DNA from: a virus
Length of the DNA stretch: 37,686 nucleotides
IMG/VR virus record: IMGVR_UViG_3300033149_005302
Coordinates: 1 to 37,686 of that record
Direction: 5' to 3' (one strand)
The translations under genes were made by a program, and so were the position numbers. Below are positions 5,160 to 28,581 of the stretch, one piece after another (position 1 is the first letter of the stretch; the number at the start of each line of letters is the position of its first letter). The notes beneath the pieces are model-generated. The model was given only the letters and a program-made list of their open reading frames with translations. It did no database searches and was not told where the DNA came from.

Positions 5160-6874
5160 TACTCCTCTACGTCGGTCGGCTCTTCGGCCTCTATCTCTGC
5201 GGCTGCCTTGGCGGCTGAGAGCATCGGCCCACCGCCACCGACAAGCGGTAGCAGGGCGCCACCGGGCACGGCGCCTCTGGCGCTTGCACGTTGGCCGTAG
5301 GTGCCGATCTTCCCGCTCTCTATCTGCTCCAGGGTCAGGCCGATCTGGTTGGCGATAACGAGCGCCGCCGTCTCGTCGCCTTCTTCCAGGGCCGCCTTAG
5401 CCATGTTCAGCAAGGCCAGGTCGGGCACCGCCCTCTCCGCATCTTCTATCTTCCTAAGGCGCGCCTCGCGCCTGGGGTCGTCCTGTTTCAGGATTTCCTC
5501 TCCGATGGTGGCCTCGGAGTAGTGCGGCCTGGCCGCGTTGGCCACCGTCAGGTTGAGGATGTTCTGCTCCGGGTCGACAGCCTCGTAGGAGTACGTGATT
5601 GAGTACTGCCCTTCGAGGTCGCCTGCGCTGTACTTCGTCTGGTTGCCCGGGCGGCCCAGCTCGGTGTCGAACCCGCCGCGGATATACTGGTCGATCATCA
5701 TGCGGGCCAGCTTCTCGCGGAAGCTAGCTATAGCCCTCAGCCGCGGGCCGAATACCCTGTGCTTGCCGTCGGTCAGCTTGGCCAGGGCTACCGCCGACAG
5801 CGGGTGGTGGACGTCGCCGTACTCCGCCGCCGGTAGGCTGCCCCGCTGCAGGTTTGACTCCAGCTCTGCGTGTAGCAGGCGGGTGGCGTTGCGGATGTCG
5901 TTCATGGGTACCCGCTCCAGCACCTCTTCCTTCCCGATAGGCACAATCACACGCTTGCCGTACGGTGGCAGCTGGAGCGCCGGGCTACGCGATCCTTCTT
6001 CGTTGCGGAACTGGAGCGGGCCGAAGGCGGCCATCATGGTGAGGGTTGCCAGCAGCGACATGAGGGTGTTCTTGGTATCGTACAGGTCGCGGTTGGCAGC
6101 GAAGATGCTCTCCCCCTGGTAGGCCAGTGAATCGTTGTCCTGAAGCAGGCTACCGCTGGGGCACGCCTGTATCACCCAGGGCACGTATCCCAGGTTGTGC
6201 TTCCGCTCTTTCACCATGTCCTTTTCCAGGTAGACCCGCTCTACCCTGTCGTCCCAGTAGTCGCGCACCGTGGAGTAGTCGCTGTTCGTCTCTACGCCGT
6301 ACTCGCGCCACACCTGGGCTTTGCTCCGCGTGGTGGTGTAGGAGACCCACAGTAAGCTATCGCGTCCTATCTCGTGGGTCAGGTAGCGGGTGTCCACGGG
6401 CAGCACGTCTGGAATGAAGGTATCGCCGTTCATGTAGAGCTGGCAGCGGGCCGCGATCCAGCCGCGTATCGTGATCTGCTCGGCCAGGAAGTCCCGCAGG
6501 CGCCCAATGAGCCTGTCCTGGAGGCGGACGTCGATCATGTAGTCCAGGTCGCGCAGGAAGCTCTCGATGATGGTGGTGCGCTCGTCGATGCGCTGTAGCT
6601 CCTTGCCCTGTGGCCCCAGGCCCTCGACGATTATCTGCTCCTTGCACTCCTGGATGGTGGCTATGACGTACTGGGCGAAGACACGCGGGTCGTTGGCCGT
6701 GACGTGCTCCACGTCGGGGATTTCGCGGTTGTCCTTGTCCACAAGGGTGAAGTCCTTGAGCCACCACAGGTCGCGGTCTGTGTCCATGCGAGACCAGAGG
6801 GTGGAGAACTGCGCCTCCCGCTCGATAATCTTGCGGTAGCAGTCCTCGGGGGTTTCGTTCCTGTACTCGGTCAT
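5159..6874 (-). CDS. Portal protein
   Basis: A protein of 571 aa when started at ATG 6874, which overlaps the previous stop as ATGA and has GAGG about 12 nt upstream. A TTG at 6886 is possible but sits directly against the GAGG. The sequence has the portal layout: an acidic/aromatic N-terminus (WWLKDFTL), a helical core with LQDRLIGRLRDFLAEQI and VLPVDTRYLTHEIG, a hydrophobic segment near LLATLTMMAAFGPL, then a long helical C-terminus (LNLTVANAARPHYSEATI, then alternating E/R helices) and a Gly/Ala/acid tail. Portals form the dodecameric DNA channel at one capsid vertex and dock the terminase. Its place between tail-type proteins and the scaffold/coat genes fits this. Assigned by pattern, not by search. 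Confidence 0.78.
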   Translation of the reverse strand: MTEYRNETPEDCYRKIIEREAQFSTLWSRMDTDRDLWWLKDFTLVDKDNREIPDVEHVTANDPRVFAQYVIATIQECKEQIIVEGLGPQGKELQRIDERTTIIESFLRDLDYMIDVRLQDRLIGRLRDFLAEQITIRGWIAARCQLYMNGDTFIPDVLPVDTRYLTHEIGRDSLLWVSYTTTRSKAQVWREYGVETNSDYSTVRDYWDDRVERVYLEKDMVKERKHNLGYVPWVIQACPSGSLLQDNDSLAYQGESIFAANRDLYDTKNTLMSLLATLTMMAAFGPLQFRNEEGSRSPALQLPPYGKRVIVPIGKEEVLERVPMNDIRNATRLLHAELESNLQRGSLPAAEYGDVHHPLSAVALAKLTDGKHRVFGPRLRAIASFREKLARMMIDQYIRGGFDTELGRPGNQTKYSAGDLEGQYSITYSYEAVDPEQNILNLTVANAARPHYSEATIGEEILKQDDPRREARLRKIEDAERAVPDLALLNMAKAALEEGDETAALVIANQIGLTLEQIESGKIGTYGQRASARGAVPGGALLPLVGGGGPMLSAAKAAAEIEAEEPTDVEE

Positions 6875-8121
6875 TTGCTCATCCAACCTCTAGGCGCCGC
6901 CGGGGGTGGGCCGCTCGGCGTGTAGGTGCAGTAGATGGACATCTTTACGTCAAGGGGCGAACGATCAGGTGGGAACGGATCAGGCGAGCCGTCATCGAAC
7001 TCGTCCTTAACCTCATAGTATGTCGCGCCAGAATCCCAATAGTGCCGAAGGTACCTGGATTGATGCGACCCTAGAAAATAGTCTGCTGCACTTAAGCTAG
7101 CGCCATTTATGGCAGAGAGGGTGTACCAGCCGGCGTCTGACGGATAATAGTAGTCCTCTGTGTAGTCGACAAGGCTGCCGGGATAGCCGCTATCGCTACT
7201 ATAAATTAACCATCGCACCGTACAGCGGCTGCTGTCATACTGGCAATACGCTGTCAGCGATTCGACTGTGCCGCTTTCGGGGCAGGTGAACAAGCTAACA
7301 CGTAGCACGTCATCACTGAATACCCCGGAACTACTGCCTATTGTCTCATACCCGAACGTGGCCCCAGCCGCGTGCCGCACGGGGTAGACCGCGGAGTCCA
7401 AAAACTTCCACGGTATCTCCACTACCATCAAGCCAGCATCCTCATCGATGCCAAGGTCGCCCCACACGGCGTTGCCCGCAGCATCGACAATTCTTGGCCG
7501 GTAAATGTGGAAGGCTTTACCACACCGGTACTTCTCGCCATCACTCTTGCTTCGGTGCACGTTGCCCCGCGTGGCATGATATACAGCGTAGCTGCCTACT
7601 ACGTTCTCGGGCCGCACGCTATAGCCACCATCTGGCTCCTCGCACCATGTCGGGTGTTCAGGATGCAGTGGCGGCTGATAGTAAAACTTCAACCCCTTAG
7701 TCTCGATAGGCAACGCCAGCATGAAAGATTCCGGTGACCTGGTAAATGGCAAGAGCTTACGCAGCCTGTCAGTCAAACTCCGTGGGGGCTTCTTCTTCAG
7801 GATAACGTTAAACTCGAACCCACCGTCCTGGCACTGCTCAAATAGCTGCTCTCCCCAGGGTGTATCGACGACTACTCTCCGCGGGACGGTTGGGTACGTT
7901 TCCATCTCTATGGCTTCGCTGCCCCATCGCACCTTGTGATCTGTTACCTCTAGCAAATCACCCGGCTCCTGAAGCCACACTGCTAAGGAGCACTCACCGC
8001 CCCATCGTTTCAACTGCACATGAGGAACGAACGCCTCTTCCCACCTGACATCCCCTACGATAACCTCGTCCCCGTTCGGAAGCGTGTGGCTGTAGCTGTT
8101 CTTCTTCAGTACCGTCCACAT
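6871..8121 (-). CDS. Putative virion surface/tail protein, 416 aa
   Basis: The start is ATG 8121, which shares one base with the upstream stop (TGATG) and has GGTGGGG about 8 nt upstream; the longer TTG start at 8148 lacks this. The protein is rich in Tyr, Ser, Gly and aromatic residues, with no signal peptide and no membrane helix. The N-terminal ~260 residues look like a beta-rich domain with paired Trp/Tyr strands. The C-terminal ~150 residues (SSSGVFSDDVLRVSLFTCPE onward) resemble a jelly-roll domain followed by a proline-rich tail. It lies in a coupled run between another structural protein and the portal, so a tail or decoration function is likely. The exact function is not recognised. 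Confidence 0.55.
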   Translation of the reverse strand: MWTVLKKNSYSHTLPNGDEVIVGDVRWEEAFVPHVQLKRWGGECSLAVWLQEPGDLLEVTDHKVRWGSEAIEMETYPTVPRRVVVDTPWGEQLFEQCQDGGFEFNVILKKKPPRSLTDRLRKLLPFTRSPESFMLALPIETKGLKFYYQPPLHPEHPTWCEEPDGGYSVRPENVVGSYAVYHATRGNVHRSKSDGEKYRCGKAFHIYRPRIVDAAGNAVWGDLGIDEDAGLMVVEIPWKFLDSAVYPVRHAAGATFGYETIGSSSGVFSDDVLRVSLFTCPESGTVESLTAYCQYDSSRCTVRWLIYSSDSGYPGSLVDYTEDYYYPSDAGWYTLSAINGASLSAADYFLGSHQSRYLRHYWDSGATYYEVKDEFDDGSPDPFPPDRSPLDVKMSIYCTYTPSGPPPAAPRGWMSK

Positions 8122-13290: not shown

Positions 13291-13428
13291 AAGTATTGAC
13301 CTCTACTTTACTTCTACCACGCATGTCAAACACAACGTCCTTCAGTGCATAAGGGCGGAGCATGGTATCCTTCTCACCAGGAGCACGTCCTTTTTCTTTA
13401 ATATATTTTCTTTAATAGTGCGTGAAAA

Positions 13429-13535
13429 GGTATCAATATTGATACCCAAGGGTATCAGTACTGATATTCGTAAGCGACTATCAATTCTGATACCCTTCGT
13501 TCGTACTGGCTCAAAAAGGTATCAATTCTGATACC
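13429..13535. repeat. Four palindromic iterons (second cluster)
   Basis: Four copies of an 18-bp palindrome, consensus GGTATCANNNNTGATACC, start at 13429, 13451, 13477 and 13518. The first, GGTATCAATATTGATACC, is perfect and identical to the copy at 17349. The first two are 22 bp apart, about two helical turns. The last extends to an 11-bp arm (AAAAGGTATCA and its complement), so it could also form a hairpin. They are probable binding sites of the O-like initiator; a repressor is the alternative. Confidence 0.75.
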
Positions 13536-13649
13536 TTTTGTTCGTGAACCGCGGCTGTTAACTTTTCCTCAGGCTTTCCCTCCGGCTTTTCCATTCGTGC
13601 AGAAAGATTAAGATTGTCTCACAAAACCGCACAAAGGTGCAGAAAAGTA

Positions 13650-17021: not shown

Positions 17022-17836
17022 TCGAGCTCGTACTCACTATCCTGGCCGTTCCGCCGGCGCCACTCCCCAATCTGGTTCTGGACCGTCATCATAAACAGCG
17101 CCTTGTCTTCCCAGAAGGGCCGTGCCTTCAGCCAGTCGTAGCAGCTCAGAATGTCGCTCACTGTGTACCCCTCGCGCAGCATCCAGCGTACTGCCTTGGC
17201 CTCCGCTGCACTTTTCGCCGTGTTCCAGCCCCTACGCTCTTTGAGTCCGGCAAAGACGCTCCTTACATCGTTCTCATCAAGGGCACATCCTTTTTCTTTA
17301 ATATATTTCTTTGTAGTGACTGAAAAGGTATCACTACTGATATCTTTGGGTATCAATATTGATACCTTTTCTGTAGGCTTTTCCGCGGGCTTTTCCGTAG
17401 GCCCTCCCGTAGGCTCTACTTCCTCAAACGCGTGCTTGGCCCCAGGCGCTATCAGTTCCGATACCCTTTCTTCGTGATCATCACGCTCGTCGAACGCTTC
17501 CTTAGCCTTAGACGCTACCAGTTCCGGCTCCTCTTCTTCATAGCCGACCCATCTCTCCCAGTCCTTTTGCAGCCCAATTCTCCTGCCCTCCCGCACGAGC
17601 ATGCCCCTTGCGGTCAACCCCCTGAGTGCGCGGTACACATTCGGCTTCAGTATGCGCGTCATCCGTGCCACCCTAGGCCCGGTGACGTACCCGGCCTTAG
17701 TGCTGTAGCCATAGCTCAGCCTGATGATGCAGAGAAGCACCTGCCATTCACTGGGGCTGAGATGGACGCCGGCGAGCTTCTCTAAGAGCTCATTAGCGAT
17801 CCGCGTATAGCCGTTCTCCAGTTCCGGGCTTGCCAA
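17006..17836 (-). CDS. Replication initiator, lambda O-like (phage Rep_O)
   Basis: 276 aa from TTG 17836, with AAAGGA about 9 nt upstream. The N-terminal ~95 residues match the phage replication O winged-helix domain: ENGYTRIANELLEKLAGVHL, SEWQVLLCIIRLSYGY, a recognition helix around RILKPNVYRALRGL. The acidic/Lys middle contains the PTEKPAEKPTEK repeat and is encoded by DNA carrying palindromic iterons and an AT-rich tract. The C-terminal domain (TAKSAAEAKAVRWMLREGYT, then WLKARPFWEDKALFMMT) resembles helicase-contact domains of DnaD/O proteins. It binds the origin inside its own gene and loads DnaB, as lambda O does. It overlaps both the upstream Mom-like gene and dnaB. Confidence 0.88.
   Translation of the reverse strand: MASPELENGYTRIANELLEKLAGVHLSPSEWQVLLCIIRLSYGYSTKAGYVTGPRVARMTRILKPNVYRALRGLTARGMLVREGRRIGLQKDWERWVGYEEEEPELVASKAKEAFDERDDHEERVSELIAPGAKHAFEEVEPTGGPTEKPAEKPTEKVSILIPKDISSDTFSVTTKKYIKEKGCALDENDVRSVFAGLKERRGWNTAKSAAEAKAVRWMLREGYTVSDILSCYDWLKARPFWEDKALFMMTVQNQIGEWRRRNGQDSEYELEWRVR
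17289..17465. other. Replication origin inside the initiator gene
   Basis: Palindromic iterons GGTATCACTACTGATATC (17327-17344) and GGTATCAATATTGATACC (17349-17366) lie 22 bp apart. A weaker copy GCTATCAGTTCCGATACC is at 17448-17465, with a degenerate one near 17513-17530. Immediately beside them, 17289-17318 is a T/A-rich tract suitable for unwinding. Iterons plus an AT-rich element inside the O gene is the lambda origin layout. A decayed second copy lies at 13371-13535. Confidence 0.75.
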
Positions 17837-18347: not shown

Positions 18348-18517
18348 TGCCGGCACAGGCGCCAGCCGTCCTGCCAGTCAGACGACACCGATATAGACCT
18401 TCCACACGCAGTCCGACCGTCCCACATGTCGTACACGTGCGCCACGCCGTTGTCGCTCTGTTCGAGCCTATGGTTGGTTAGGGTTGCCATGCGTTGTAAG
18501 ACTTCAGATTGGGTCAA
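18308..18517 (-). CDS. Small zinc-ribbon protein (array copy A)
   Basis: 69 aa from TTG 18517, with GGAGG 5 nt upstream; the TTG overlaps the previous ORF stop (TTGA). The HVYDMWDGRTACGRS block followed by GWRLCRQCQEFL matches the array family: His...aCGr...LCxxC, a probable treble-clef or zinc-ribbon pattern common in small phage proteins. It is the last of four related domains encoded in 18308-19214. The function is unknown; small zinc proteins of this kind often bind nucleic acid or host transcription machinery. Confidence 0.55.
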   Translation of the reverse strand: MTQSEVLQRMATLTNHRLEQSDNGVAHVYDMWDGRTACGRSISVSSDWQDGWRLCRQCQEFLLRVASDT

Positions 18518-18753
18518 AGCTCCTCCTCGAACCCCAGTGCGTTTAGAAACCCCTGACATCTCTTGCAGAGCGGCAGATCGCCCAGTCACAAGTCAGTGGG
18601 TCTGGTTGGCCCGGCACGACAGATGGTGAACTGGTCAATGCCTTGCTCTGTGTCCATTACATCTGCTACGTGCAGCAGCTTTCCGTCTCCTACGAGGCAC
18701 AGTTTCAAGCCAAAATGCCTCATCAGTCTCCTTGCGACTTCGTGTTCTTTCAC
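18514..18753 (-). pseudogene. Small zinc-ribbon protein (array copy B) interrupted by in-frame UGA
   Basis: It starts at GTG 18753, overlapping the previous stop (GTGA), with AGGAGG just upstream. The frame reads KEHEVARRLMRHFGLKLCLV, DQFTICRAGPTRPTDL, then TGA (18586-18588), then without a break LGDLPLCKRCQGFLNALGFE to a stop at 18514. The neighbouring copy C has the intact equivalent ATDLGPGDLPLCKECERFL, so the part after the TGA is homologous coding sequence and holds the second Cys pair. Without readthrough the 55-aa product loses half of its metal site. The context TGA-C is a known leaky one, so readthrough is possible; a simple nonsense mutation (GGA to TGA) is the other explanation. 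Confidence 0.6.
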
Positions 18754-19214
18754 AGCTCCTCCTCGCGTTCCAGTTCCTTCAGGAACCTCTCACATTCCTT
18801 GCAAAGCGGCAGATCGCCCGGGCCCAAATCGGTGGCTGTAGTCGGCCCTATGCCACAGACGCTGAACCGGGTAACGCCCTGGCCCGTGTCCATTCCTTCT
18901 GCTACGTGCAGCCGCCTTGTGTCTCCTACGAGACACGATTTCAAGCCAAAACGACTCATCACTCTGCTTGCCATTTTCTTTTGTTTCACAGCTCTTCTTT
19001 TAGCTTTAGAGCAGTGCTTGCAAAGCTTGAAGCTGTCCGGCAATTTGTCTATAGCTACCGTTGGCCCGATACCACAGATGGTGTACTTGTCCATCTCTTC
19101 CGGGCCAAATCTGTAGGCCAAATGCAAGTCCTTACTGTTTCTTACCCGGCAGAACTGTAAGAGTCGTAACCCCTGGTCATCCGAGTGATACCGCAGAAGC
19201 CTATGGTCTATCAT
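18750..19214 (-). CDS. Double zinc-ribbon protein (array copies D and C fused)
   Basis: 154 aa from ATG 19214 (GGAGGGGG upstream). Two tandem copies of one domain are visible. Residues ~1-78 contain HLAYRFGPEEMDKYTICGIG, PTVAIDKL and LCKHC. Residues ~81-154 contain RLHVAEGMDTG, FSVCGIGPTTATDL and LCKECERFL. Shared hallmarks are CGIGPTxAxDL and LCKxC, with CxxG...CxxC as likely metal ligands. The second half is closest to copy B downstream. It lies in a chain of overlapping small genes (ATGA before, GTGA after). The function is not known. Confidence 0.6.
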   Translation of the reverse strand: MIDHRLLRYHSDDQGLRLLQFCRVRNSKDLHLAYRFGPEEMDKYTICGIGPTVAIDKLPDSFKLCKHCSKAKRRAVKQKKMASRVMSRFGLKSCLVGDTRRLHVAEGMDTGQGVTRFSVCGIGPTTATDLGPGDLPLCKECERFLKELEREEEL

Positions 19215-24003: not shown

Positions 24004-24028
24004 CGTCTCCTCCTTTTCTTTGCAATGT

Positions 24029-24095
24029 TTACGAAGGGTTTTGTGTAAAATTGGCCCCTTCAGGCCCTAGACCCCACGGCCTGCCGCGGAACCTG
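24029..24095. repeat. Direct repeat copy 1 (3' end of zinc-ribbon gene)
   Basis: About 65 bp starting TTACGAAGGGTTTTGTGTAA is closely similar to 28331-28395 in the same orientation. Both encode, on the minus strand, the C-terminal FTQNPS-stop. The two copies flank the regulator-attP-integrase-TnpB-like region. Confidence 0.7.
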
Positions 24096-24914: not shown

Positions 24915-25235
24915 TTGGTGGCGAGGAGGAGGCTAAGATTAGGAGAGCACAGCTTAAGAGGCAAGAAGATTCAGGCAGAGCTTGACAGGCTTCAGTTGTC
25001 ACAGACAGAATTGGCTTCCAGGATAGGGATGCCCCAGCAAACATTGAACCGAATAATGACGGGCCAGATACACGACCCTGGCGTAGAGACGATGGCGCGG
25101 ATAGCCCGTGAGCTGGGCCAGCCGCTCGACTACTTCCAGGACGATATCACCATCGGCCTTAGCATGGCGAGCGAGCTGAGAGCCTGGCTGCAAATGGGCA
25201 TCCGTATCATGCGCAAGTATAATGCCTGGCCATAA
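24915..25235 (+). CDS. Cro/CI-type HTH repressor
   Basis: 106 aa. The first codon is TTG 24915 or GTG 24918, and GGAGG lies immediately upstream of both. After a basic start comes a standard XRE HTH: KIQAELDRLQLSQTELASRI, GMPQQTLNRIMTGQ, then ETMARIARELGQPLDYFQD. A short C-terminal helical segment follows; there is no peptidase domain, so a LexA-type cleavage switch is unlikely. It is divergent from the RHH gene, the usual place of a phage lysogeny regulator. It leads an apparent operon through the membrane proteins to int and the TnpB-like gene. Confidence 0.85.
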   Translation: MVARRRLRLGEHSLRGKKIQAELDRLQLSQTELASRIGMPQQTLNRIMTGQIHDPGVETMARIARELGQPLDYFQDDITIGLSMASELRAWLQMGIRIMRKYNAWP

Positions 25236-25250
25236 GGAGGTGGAATATTC

Positions 25251-25439
25251 ATGACGTACATCAGTTTAATACTTTCGATCGGTCTCGCGTATGCCTTGGG
25301 TATAGCAGCAGATATCATTGTGCGCCACAGGAAAGTGCTATGGCGGGACCGCAGACGTCGCCTGATATTGCCCATGGTATCGTTCACAGCGGGAATCGTG
25401 ACATTGGTGGTAGTCGCTACTTATGCCGCCGATGGCTAG
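25251..25439 (+). CDS. Two-TM small membrane protein 1
   Basis: 62 aa from ATG 25251 with AAGGAGGTGG upstream. Helix 1 is SLILSIGLAYALGIAADIIV, then a strongly basic loop (RHRKVLWRDRRRRL), then helix 2 MVSFTAGIVTLVVVATY and a short tail. It is roughly two-thirds identical to the next gene, so the pair is a tandem duplication. The position between repressor and attP, where lysogenic conversion genes usually sit, suggests superinfection exclusion or host-membrane modification; this is inference. Confidence 0.6.
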   Translation: MTYISLILSIGLAYALGIAADIIVRHRKVLWRDRRRRLILPMVSFTAGIVTLVVVATYAADG

Positions 25440-25470
25440 CGTGGCACAAGCTGCTTCAGAAGGAGGTGGA

Positions 25471-25665
25471 ATGTTTATCAGTACGCTGGCTTCGCTCGGT
25501 CTTGGGTATGGTTTGGGTATAGTAGGATATATCATTGTCCGCCACGGAAAAACGCTATGGCAGGACCGCAGCCGTCGCCGTCGCTTGATCTTGCCCGCGG
25601 TAGCCTTCACAGCTGGAATCGTGATATTGTCTGTGATAGTCGCTACTTATCCAGCCGATGGCTAA
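25471..25665 (+). CDS. Two-TM small membrane protein 2
   Basis: 64 aa from ATG 25471 with AGGAGGTGG upstream, the same leader sequence as its paralogue at 25251. Helix 1 is STLASLGLGYGLGIVGYIIV, the loop is basic (RHGKTLWQDRSRRRRL), and helix 2 is AVAFTAGIVILSVIVATY. The LILPxVxFTAGIV block and the ATYxADG end are shared with copy 1. The paralogues differ mainly in helix 1, as expected if they diverged in what they recognise. Confidence 0.6.
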   Translation: MFISTLASLGLGYGLGIVGYIIVRHGKTLWQDRSRRRRLILPAVAFTAGIVILSVIVATYPADG

Positions 25666-25998: not shown

Positions 25999-26985
25999 AT
26001 GAGCACGAATTTTGAGAAATTTGCCGAAAACAGCGGTCTTAGACCTTCTGATTTTTGGGAGTGGCTGCGTAAACAAATGGTTTTAGACCTTCTGATTCCG
26101 AAATCCTTGGGAGAGGCCGTGGCCCTCTGGGTGACCGAAAAGGGCATCCACCAGTGCTCAAAACGCACCATTGACTTTTACAGATACAACATGCGGCCGT
26201 TCCTTGAGCGATTTGACGCGGAATCAGAGGTTCACGCCATTAGCCCCGACCAGGTCCGGGAGTTCTTCGCCCTGGAGTCGCAGCGGCTGCGGGGCAAGGC
26301 GCACACGCTCCACGCCGAGTACCGCACTGTGCGAGCCTTCTTCTCGTGGGCACAGGCCAACCGGTACGTGCTGGAGAACCCCGTACAGTTGCCAGCTCCG
26401 CAGCTTCCGCAGCGGGTGAAACCCATCATCGAGCCCCAGGACTTCGCCTGCATCCTGCGCCACTGCGACAACACCGTCATCGGTCGCCGTGATCGTGCTA
26501 TCCTCATGCTGTTTTACGACACCGGCATCCGGCTCCAGGAGATGGCCGACCTAAAGCTGGCTGACATCGACATTGCAGAATCGCGCATTACCGTGCACGG
26601 TAAGGGGAACAAATACCGGGTGGTGCCTCTCTCAGAGAACGTCCTGGCTGCCGTGTGGGAGTGGCTCAAGGTGAGACAGTCGATCCTGCCGGCCCTGTGG
26701 CTGGGTGAGGAAGGCCAGCCGCTGACGGCCTCCGGCATACAGCAGGCCGTGAAACGTGTAACGCGGAGGGCGTTAGGCAAACCGCTCGGCACCCACATCT
26801 TCAGGCACTCGTTCTCCTGCCTGTTCCTGGAAGCCGGAGGCGATTCGTTCGATCTACAGACCCTCCTGGGCCACTCCAGCCTGAGGACTACGCAGGGCTA
26901 CTCCGAGGCAACGAAGGTTCGGAGGGCGCTCAAGGCCCACGAGCGGTATTCGCCGGTGGGGCGCCTAGATTGGGGCAAGCGATGA
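25999..26985 (+). CDS. int: Tyrosine recombinase / integrase
   Basis: 328 aa. The N-terminal core-binding domain (~38-125) includes SLGEAVALWVTEKG and HTLHAEYRTVRAFFSWAQAN. The catalytic domain carries the full set: Arg 178 (DTGIRLQE), Lys 202 region (VHGKGNKYR), His 266-x-x-Arg 269 (THIFRHSF), His 292 (LLGHSS) and Tyr 301 (TTQGYSE). It would integrate the phage at a tRNA gene via the adjacent attP. The first ~35 residues are encoded by two DNA repeats that may be binding sites, so the start could be cis-acting DNA as well as coding. Its stop overlaps the TnpB-like start as ATGA. Confidence 0.95.
   Translation: MSTNFEKFAENSGLRPSDFWEWLRKQMVLDLLIPKSLGEAVALWVTEKGIHQCSKRTIDFYRYNMRPFLERFDAESEVHAISPDQVREFFALESQRLRGKAHTLHAEYRTVRAFFSWAQANRYVLENPVQLPAPQLPQRVKPIIEPQDFACILRHCDNTVIGRRDRAILMLFYDTGIRLQEMADLKLADIDIAESRITVHGKGNKYRVVPLSENVLAAVWEWLKVRQSILPALWLGEEGQPLTASGIQQAVKRVTRRALGKPLGTHIFRHSFSCLFLEAGGDSFDLQTLLGHSSLRTTQGYSEATKVRRALKAHERYSPVGRLDWGKR
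26035..26097. repeat. Two direct repeats in the 5' part of int
   Basis: GGTYTTAGACCTTCTGATT occurs at 26035-26053 and 26079-26097, 44 bp apart. The inverted TCAGAAGGTC is at 25962-25971 and TTTTAGAC at 25940-25947. This set centred on attP looks like arm-type integrase sites or, alternatively, an int-autoregulation element. Confidence 0.6.
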
Positions 26986-28124
26986 TCAGGAAAGTGTTCC
27001 GTGCCGAGATCGTAAAGCCAGTTAACATGGACTGGCAGGGGTTTAACACGGTCCTCAACAAGGCAATGTTCGCGTCCGCTCGCCTGGGCAACGAGGTCAT
27101 GGCCACGTCGTACCTCTTGGCCAAGAAACAGGTGGTCAGGGAGGGCAGTTTCTGCCGGATGATCACTAGCTGCCGAGAAGATGACAGCACCAGTTTCAAC
27201 GTGCGGTGCGCCGTCTGCCGCCGGGCCCGCCTCCGCTTTCAGGCGATGGCCCGGGAGCTGCTGCGTGGGGATGTGCGCCTGCCCACGTTCCGCAACAACA
27301 GTCTCTACATGCGGGACCGGGCGGTGAAGCTGTGGCCAAACGCCGACAATGGGGACTGGGAGGCCCGGCTGGCCATCCTGCCGGGGCACCAGCTTCAGCC
27401 GGTGGTTCGGTTGAGGATGAGGACCATGCGCCGCAGGTCGCCGGGCTACTACCAGATACTGGAGCGCATCGCCAGCGGTGAGTACAAGCTGGGGACAGTG
27501 GAGCTGGTGAGGAACCGGCAACGGGGAAAGCTGTACCTGCTGATGTCATACAGCTTCGAACCTGCTGGTCGAACTGTGGACTCTGACAGGGTCATGGCAG
27601 TCTACCCCGATGTCACCACGCTCTGTTCGCTCGATGGCCGCGAGCACGAGTTCCCGCCCCGGCGGGTGCTAGAGGTCAAGGACCAGATAGAGCGCCGGAG
27701 GGAGACGATCCGGCGTGAGATCAGTGGCCGGAGCCGACGGCGGGGGCACGGGCGAAAGGCGAAGTACGCCTCCCTGACGAAGCTGGAGGACCGATGGGCG
27801 AACTTCTGGCGGAACTGGTCTCACGCCCGGGCTCGCGAGGTGGTGGACTATGCCCAGCGCCAGGGAGTCAGTACAATTTACGTTGCAGACACGCCCGAAC
27901 CGGGCAAGGACTGGCCAAGCTACGACCTAGTGCAGAAGATTCAAAACAAGTGCGACGAGGCCAAGCTAAGGGTGGTGGTCGTCAAGGACAGCAAGCTCAG
28001 CCAAGCCTGTTCTCAGTGTGGGAGTCTGGAGGGTGAGGCTGAGGATGGCACGTTTCGTTGCGGGTCGTGCGGCTACGAAGATAGCGTGGCCCGCAACACG
28101 GTCAGGGTGCTCATTAACAAGTGA
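26982..28124 (+). CDS. TnpB/Cas12f-like RNA-guided protein, predicted nuclease-dead
   Basis: 380 aa from ATG 26982, overlapping the int stop (ATGA), so it is co-translated with the integrase. The N-terminus (KVFRAEIVKPVNMDWQGF) is typical of Cas12f/V-U and TnpB-like proteins. Cys 58, 64, 76 and 79 could form an N-terminal zinc finger. The Arg-rich bridge region (240-262) and the C-terminal finger CSQCG...CGSCG (343, 346, 360, 363) are kept. The three RuvC acids are not: the motif-I Asp aligns with Tyr 208 (VMAVYPDV), the motif-II Glu with Ala 302 (IYVADT), and the motif-III Asp with Ala 370 (SVARNT). There is no TnpA transposase. This is the profile of nuclease-dead TnpB-like repressors (TldR) or dead Cas12-type proteins: RNA-guided DNA binding without cutting. 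Function is inferred. Confidence 0.82.
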   Translation: MIRKVFRAEIVKPVNMDWQGFNTVLNKAMFASARLGNEVMATSYLLAKKQVVREGSFCRMITSCREDDSTSFNVRCAVCRRARLRFQAMARELLRGDVRLPTFRNNSLYMRDRAVKLWPNADNGDWEARLAILPGHQLQPVVRLRMRTMRRRSPGYYQILERIASGEYKLGTVELVRNRQRGKLYLLMSYSFEPAGRTVDSDRVMAVYPDVTTLCSLDGREHEFPPRRVLEVKDQIERRRETIRREISGRSRRRGHGRKAKYASLTKLEDRWANFWRNWSHARAREVVDYAQRQGVSTIYVADTPEPGKDWPSYDLVQKIQNKCDEAKLRVVVVKDSKLSQACSQCGSLEGEAEDGTFRCGSCGYEDSVARNTVRVLINK

Positions 28125-28330
28125 ATATGTTTTTGGGCCGACTTCACCGGCCCAAGAGCGAGAAGTGCCAGCGCACCGAGCCCGCGGTGTTGGATCTCTC
28201 TCGAAACGGGCTGACGACGGGGGACGGTTCCCGGCTGGTAACACTCGCAAGCCACTAACTGAGATGGTGGCAGTGAAGGTGAGGCAATTCTATCTCGTAC
28301 AGGTAGCTTCAGCGCTGTAACGTGTCAGTC
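28125..28330 (+). ncRNA. Candidate guide-RNA (omega-RNA-like) scaffold downstream of the TnpB-like gene
   Basis: This ~200-nt part of the 307-bp gap (28125-28431) contains no convincing gene but strong structure. TTGGGCCG/CGGCCCAA (28133-28155) is an 8-bp stem. CACCG/CGGTG around 28174-28189 is extended by CCA/TGG. GCCAC/GTGGC is around 28250-28270. The GAAACGGGCTGACGACG and GACGGTTCCCGGC stretch recalls TnpB right-end RNAs. In TnpB and TldR systems the guide RNA is read from exactly this place. No promoter of its own is evident. The remainder to 28431 is the decayed duplicate of a zinc-ribbon gene 3' end. Confidence 0.4.
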
Positions 28331-28395
28331 TTACGAAGGATTTTGTGTAAAAACCGACCCTTCAAGTCCTAGACCACACGGCCCGCCCCGAACCC
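28331..28395. repeat. Direct repeat copy 2 (decayed zinc-ribbon gene 3' end)
   Basis: Starts TTACGAAGGATTTTGTGTAA, one mismatch in its first 20 bases from 24029 onward, and stays similar for about 65 bp. On the minus strand it still reads GLGLEGSVFTQNPS-stop but is out of frame with the zinc-ribbon gene 28432-28581. It begins just after the candidate guide-RNA scaffold. Confidence 0.7.
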
Positions 28396-28431: not shown

Positions 28432-28581
28432 CTACGTGCTGGCAGGTCTGACCTTGTGGCACTTCAGGCACCGCCAGTAGGCTTTCATGCCGATGCCTGT
28501 AGGGCGCATCTCTTTGGTCATAGGCAGGTGGCACTGCGGGCAGGGAGGCCCGGCGTTAGAGTCTTCGACGTGGTCACTCAT
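28432..28581 (-). CDS. Zinc-ribbon peptide, 49 aa (paralogue of 24029-24244)
   Basis: ATG 28581 with AGAGGA about 9 nt upstream, starting 8 bp inside the preceding reading frame. Cys pairs PPCPQCH and YWRCLKCHKV make one zinc ribbon. MKAYWRCLKCHKVRP aligns with MKDVVWCTACHRVIP of the 71-aa protein at 24029. Here a TAG and a frame change separate the ribbon from the C-terminal FTQNPS part, which survives untranslated downstream. It is probably still functional as a short ribbon. Confidence 0.55.
   Translation of the reverse strand: MSDHVEDSNAGPPCPQCHLPMTKEMRPTGIGMKAYWRCLKCHKVRPAST

Follow-up and report, generated by a model that had tools for sequence, protein, structure and literature searches.

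A phage Cas12f homologue that has lost its catalytic acids has likely been exapted for RNA-guided DNA binding, with its guide RNA (gRNA) encoded directly 3′ of the gene. The locus lies in IMG/VR virus record IMGVR_UViG_3300033149_005302; the window, meaning the whole 37,686 bases analysed, has a 114-bp direct terminal repeat and is therefore probably a complete genome. Judged by its genes, the phage looks temperate, and the gene for this nuclease-dead Cas12f (dCas12f) appears to lie within its lysogeny block:

26982 to 28124, plus strand: nuclease-dead Cas12f1-like protein of 380 aa (phmmer, PADLOC, active-site alignment, AF2 model and VIA-align)

By sequence and modelled fold, the protein is placed in Cas12f1, the effector family of type V-F. 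Its open reading frame (ORF) begins with the ATG at 26982 and ends at 28124. The best solved relative is AsCas12f1 (phmmer E 1e-41), well ahead of other Cas12f entries and of TnpB, and PADLOC likewise reports Cas12f (E 3.5e-44, residues 2–368); Pfam and PHROGs label the protein transposase-like. An AlphaFold (AF2) model with a mean predicted local distance difference test (pLDDT) score of 83 retrieves AsCas12f entries first (Foldseek E 2.5e-29) and superimposes on 8dzj with a VIA-align Z of 27.1 over 367 residues (root-mean-square deviation 7.8). In the tree, the protein falls inside the Cas12f clade, separate from TnpB (100/99), at a position within that clade that the tree does not settle. 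A TnpB origin is rejected on this placement together with the Cas12f-type scaffold described below. The initial annotation, made from the sequence alone, had called the protein TnpB/TldR-like; it is TldR-like in kind, its active site being lost, but it is a homologue of Cas12f1 rather than a descendant of TnpB.

In the alignment with AsCas12f1 (locus L107), catalytic residues D225, E324 and D401 correspond to Y208, A302 and A370 of the window protein, while the other rows read D/E/D, apart from gapped ones. The second and third acids are lost in every alignment. Thus, on sequence comparison, the RuvC D/E/D triad of type V-F is missing, and the inactivated RuvC matches what defines the TldR proteins. 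All four zinc-ribbon cysteines are retained (4/4), and many of the conserved columns that have changed cluster around the three RuvC motifs.

The segment that follows the gene supplies the second line of evidence. No convincing gene was found from 28125 to about 28330, and the RNA of 28129–28338 has a predicted folding energy of −83.0 kcal/mol (z −2.15), matched by 2 of 200 shuffles; for 28125–28350, z is −1.84. By itself, fold energy is weak evidence for a guide RNA, but covariance-model matches fall exactly at the same segment. Two elements are recognized in its 5′ part:

28131 to 28157, plus strand: guide-RNA hairpin 1 (TTGGGCCG..CGGCCCAA), seen in the fold and aligned by covariance model to GGGGCGATTCAGCGTCC of Cas12f loci
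28158 to 28248, plus strand: guide-RNA stem 2, with conserved GAGAAGTGCC (28160–28169) and GGTAACACTCG (28237–28247) and a long variable loop between them (shared motif; matched by covariance models R1 and R2)

The GAGAAGTGCC..GGTAACACTCG motif is common to about a dozen Cas12f loci, including the AsCas12f trans-activating RNA (tracrRNA) of L107, and together with the preceding hairpin it occurs next to many Cas12f genes and at 28134–28248 of the window. Model R1 was built from nine other sequences and R2 from 31 matches at other Cas12f loci, with the window in neither. Each gave one match in the window, R1 in the 28134–28248 region (E 0.0022) and R2 at 28134–28274 (E 1.6e-4). R2 also matches at most newly found Cas12f loci; across 24 Cas12f-free loci of related phages it had no match, the window scaffold being the sole one. 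We conclude from these comparisons that the segment is a Cas12f tracrRNA-type scaffold, standing beside its gene as in type V-F. The initial annotation had described about 200 gene-free, structured base pairs after a TnpB-like ORF, which was borne out, and had read them as a TnpB-type guide-RNA locus, to be compared with covariance models. A guide-RNA scaffold it is, of the Cas12f tracrRNA type and neither a TnpB omega-RNA nor a known Rfam family: the segment has no match in Rfam, whereas the Cas12f-derived models match.

Scaffold arrangements elsewhere were also recorded. The scaffold DNA pattern had two matches in viral contigs, of which L140 looks like chance, no Cas12f being recognized there, and L139 is without a model match. 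One viral contig (L100) holds four dispersed scaffold copies (797–856, 5359–5418, 6851–6901 and 7845–7904), each followed by ATATAAGAAGGACTGAAC-type repeats, and at L085 a Cas12f gene is flanked by two scaffolds (5471–5583 and 7277–7389) and two different repeat arrays.

At the AsCas12f locus, the tracrRNA lies directly 3′ of the gene and is followed by an array of clustered regularly interspaced short palindromic repeats (CRISPR). The window contains no repeats at 45- to 85-nt spacing, which 23 of 27 relatives have; the nearby array of type V-F is thus absent within it. What follows the two stems may take its place:

28251 to 28338, plus strand: predicted scaffold 3′ part, a GCCAC/GTGGC stem or alternatively a fused repeat/anti-repeat-like hairpin (28258–28329), then the CTTACGAAG handle (RNA folds)
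28339 to 28358, plus strand: most likely guide (GATTTTGTGTAAAAACCGAC), from its position behind the predicted handle

The 28258–28329 hairpin is long and runs into CTTACGAAG; with a z of −1.56 it is weak evidence taken alone. Repeat and anti-repeat seem to be fused in this one hairpin, which would make the transcript a natural single-guide RNA. Repeats of relatives end 3′ in TGAAC, TGAAG or CGAAG types; CGAAG closes the CRISPR repeats of L085, and ACGAAG is present in the array-less scaffold of L157. Because CGAAG at 28334–28338 fits these ends best, the guide is placed at 28339. This start, with a scaffold end at 28338 instead of near 28330 as first annotated, is the likeliest; 28322 and 28334 are also possible.

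Several observations count against an exapted, nuclease-dead Cas12f. If a two-residue insertion is allowed in a two-sequence alignment, D210 could serve as the first acid. The protein keeps just 23 of 51 columns conserved in its relatives, the covariance-model scores are modest (25 bits), and the case rests on a single sequence whose relatives, across the collections searched, do not exceed about 34% identity. Searches for close protein relatives among viral contigs, phages, plasmids and 37 terminase-related phages gave nothing or only distant ones, and 791 Chloroflexota and Clostridia genomes gave distant homologues only, with D/E/D. Since there is one sequence and no relative above that identity, selection on the gene is not directly measurable. 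An old Cas12f locus that has shed its array and nuclease and is on its way out, its tracrRNA left over, would account for the very long end branch (2.65 changes per site against a median of 0.25) and for the 28 of 51 conserved columns that changed. We nevertheless hold such decay to be quite improbable. The frame is open across 380 codons, where base-shuffled versions have about 12 stops, and codon-position GC (0.60/0.46/0.80) is that of other phage genes; because both hold on so long a branch, the gene does not appear to be decaying. The zinc ribbon and the scaffold motifs are retained as well, and the gene start is coupled to the stop of the integrase.

That coupling belongs to the genomic setting. 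The stop of the integrase gene and the start of the dCas12f gene overlap (ATGA), and the block runs, all on the plus strand, from a helix-turn-helix (HTH) regulator through integrase and dCas12f to the gRNA:

24915 to 25235, plus strand: HTH (XRE-type) regulator, head of the lysogeny block (Pfam HTH_3, E 8e-12)
25999 to 26985, plus strand: tyrosine integrase (Pfam Phage_integrase, E 4e-32; sequence)
28435 to 28581, minus strand: small zinc-ribbon protein, convergent with the gRNA (sequence; correct frame MSDHVEDSNAGPPCPQC..CLKCHKVRPAST, then stop)

We propose that a phage-borne Cas12f1 lost RuvC nuclease activity and was retained as an RNA-guided DNA-binding protein. Its guide RNA would join the tracrRNA-type scaffold to a 3′ part resembling a repeat and to a single built-in guide, without an array. 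Because the gene is part of the lysogeny block and overlaps the integrase gene, the complex is probably produced in the prophage state. Like TldR or natural dCas12f, it would bind a target flanked by a protospacer adjacent motif (PAM) and block or alter transcription, turning genes off or on. By analogy with these systems, RNA-guided transcription control from the lysogeny block is probably its role.

A target inside the phage genome was suggested by a repeat that begins at the edge of the guide region:

24029 to 24093, plus strand: copy 1 of a 65-bp repeat and proposed self-target, located 26 bp upstream of the start codon (ATG, 24003, minus strand) of a 320-aa recombination-operon gene
28331 to 28395, plus strand: copy 2 of the 65-bp direct repeat (82%), from sequence comparison

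TTACGAAGGATTTTGTGTAA (28331–28350) differs from 24029–24048 by 1 mismatch in 20, and from 28331/24029 the similarity spans 65 nt at 82% and, once gaps are allowed, as much as about 117 nt. The initial annotation had noted the 20-nt match and about 65 bp of similarity; 24.03 kb is the only strong intragenomic match of the guide region. A guide pairing with 24028–24052 would let dCas12f act upstream of the 320-aa gene to block the recombination operon of the phage itself and help hold lysogeny. The near-perfect 20-nt match suits this idea, as does a location close upstream of the 24003 ATG, and a guide start at 28334 would give a TTTA PAM at 24028–24031, in line with the T-rich PAMs of many Cas12f proteins. 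Conservation is also higher in the 22 nt next to the boundary (21/22 identical) than in the 43 that follow (32/43), although the Fisher p of 0.047 is marginal and the dividing point was set post hoc. However, with the start at 28339 the site reads CGAAG on its 5′ side, with no T-rich motif, and the shared stretch starts inside the predicted scaffold, taking in its last 8 nt, and runs on through the zinc-ribbon 3′ flank. Because the 28338 end leaves no T-rich PAM and the similarity exceeds the guide on both sides, self-targeting at 24.03 kb is weakened rather than refuted: it is possible but not supported, and we consider self-regulation through this site rather unlikely. We also judge it unlikely that dead Cas12f and built-in guide form an RNA-guided lysogeny repressor of the recombination operon, a CRISPR interference-type switch that would be one of several independent Cas12f exaptations.

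We lean instead toward a simple duplication of a zinc-ribbon 3′ region that happens to coincide with the guide end, the guide being whatever followed the scaffold; this is compatible with an exapted dCas12f. The gapped similarity (about 117 nt) reaches the 3′ portion of the zinc-ribbon gene, and each copy is found where a small minus-strand zinc-ribbon gene has its 3′ end. Less easily reconciled with duplication, the true reading frames differ between the copies and the best-conserved part is noncoding at 28331. The target had initially been placed at the 3′ end of an early zinc-ribbon gene. On one point the analysis departs from that annotation: the zinc-ribbon gene beside the RNA uses another frame (28581–28435), which puts the repeat at 28331–28395 beyond its stop, whereas 24029–24093 lies within an open frame.

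The complex might also act like Cas12m and silence a competing phage or plasmid, rather than a gene of the phage or its host. There is precedent in Cas12m2, whose RuvC triad is altered and which protects through binding alone (PMC10442227). A single fixed guide without an array for updating fits poorly with such competitor exclusion, and an exact-match search of viral contigs with the candidate guide stretches 28322–28339 and 28333–28352, though not with the full most likely guide, found none; we regard this role as improbable.

It is useful to set the proposed RNA-guided regulator beside known systems. With AsCas12f1 (type V-F, Sulfoacidibacillus/Acidibacillus; PDB 8dzj, 8j12, 7wju), it shares the full-length fold, the zinc ribbon, and a gene followed by a scaffold with GAGAAGTGCC..GGTAACxCTCG and hairpin 1. 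By contrast, it has neither catalytic acids nor a CRISPR array, its stem-2 loop is longer, and identity is at most about 34%. The natural dCas12f (PDB 9n9c, 9n9m) is likewise a Cas12f inactivated by nature with its own gRNA. The two have the same fold at 14% identity and seem to belong to different branches, and only the window's lies in a phage lysogeny block; the sequence match to the 9n9c lineage is weak (17 bits, E 0.019). Natural dCas12f of this kind is linked to a sigma factor; no sigma-factor gene was recognized among those neighboring ORFs that were scanned. TldRs, TnpB-like nuclease-dead repressors carried by phages, use guides of as few as 6 nt to repress host genes (flagellin; PMC13418256). 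They resemble the locus in being nuclease-dead, borne by temperate phages and served by one guide RNA encoded after the gene, but the window protein descends from Cas12f instead of TnpB, and no flagellin or other cargo gene was seen. Finally, the binding and silencing without cutting that we propose by analogy is the mode of Cas12m2 (type V-M; PMC10442227). Cas12m2, however, has an HDD site, uses only a CRISPR RNA (crRNA), is linked to CRISPR and measures 596 aa; neither the HDD site nor a single crRNA from an array is found at the window locus.

Other features of the genome were noted in passing. Two related tandem small membrane-type proteins (25251–25439 and 25423–25665) are encoded in the interval from the HTH regulator to the integrase. 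Divergent from the regulator is a near-consensus sigma-70 promoter (24781–24753, minus strand; TTGACA-17-TAAAAT), likely an early promoter, which speaks for a bacterial host. The capsid protein, searched for host clues, had only matches of 34–35%, in Bacillota, and a search for integrase relatives found none. Palindrome clusters (e.g., GGTATCAATATTGATACC) occur in two copies 3.9 kb apart (13403–13545 and 17301–17475) and may be operator-like or replication sites, and a 236-bp tandem duplication (76%) lies amid small ORFs at 18500–18971.

Loss of the nuclease does not seem to be confined to this phage. A sample of Bacilli genomes, in which array absence was judged in the stretch fetched, yielded two chromosomal Cas12f homologues without an array. 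One (L157/L165; G1011:C94:92307-93518, minus strand) has R/D/E as catalytic residues and a scaffold nearby; the other (L160/L166; G1122:C1:1382958-1383926, plus strand) carries D225R, its nearby scaffold being on the opposite strand. For L157 and L160, candidate guide targets within the respective genomes were no better than controls. Single catalytic changes also occur in the viral homologues L151 (6001–6699, D225N) and L146 (559–1497, E324R). These four inactivated proteins are scattered apart on the tree, and nuclease loss therefore appears to have occurred on several occasions, although long branches call for caution. A single dead clade of the window protein and L157 was rejected (approximately unbiased test, p 0.038), long branches again being involved.

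Overall, our work suggests that Cas12f has repeatedly been repurposed for DNA binding, as TnpB has, in this instance within a phage lysogeny block and with a guide RNA that would need no CRISPR array. At 380 aa, the protein is a very small natural dCas12f, and the locus makes it possible to test directly how guide, PAM and target may evolve once the nuclease is lost.
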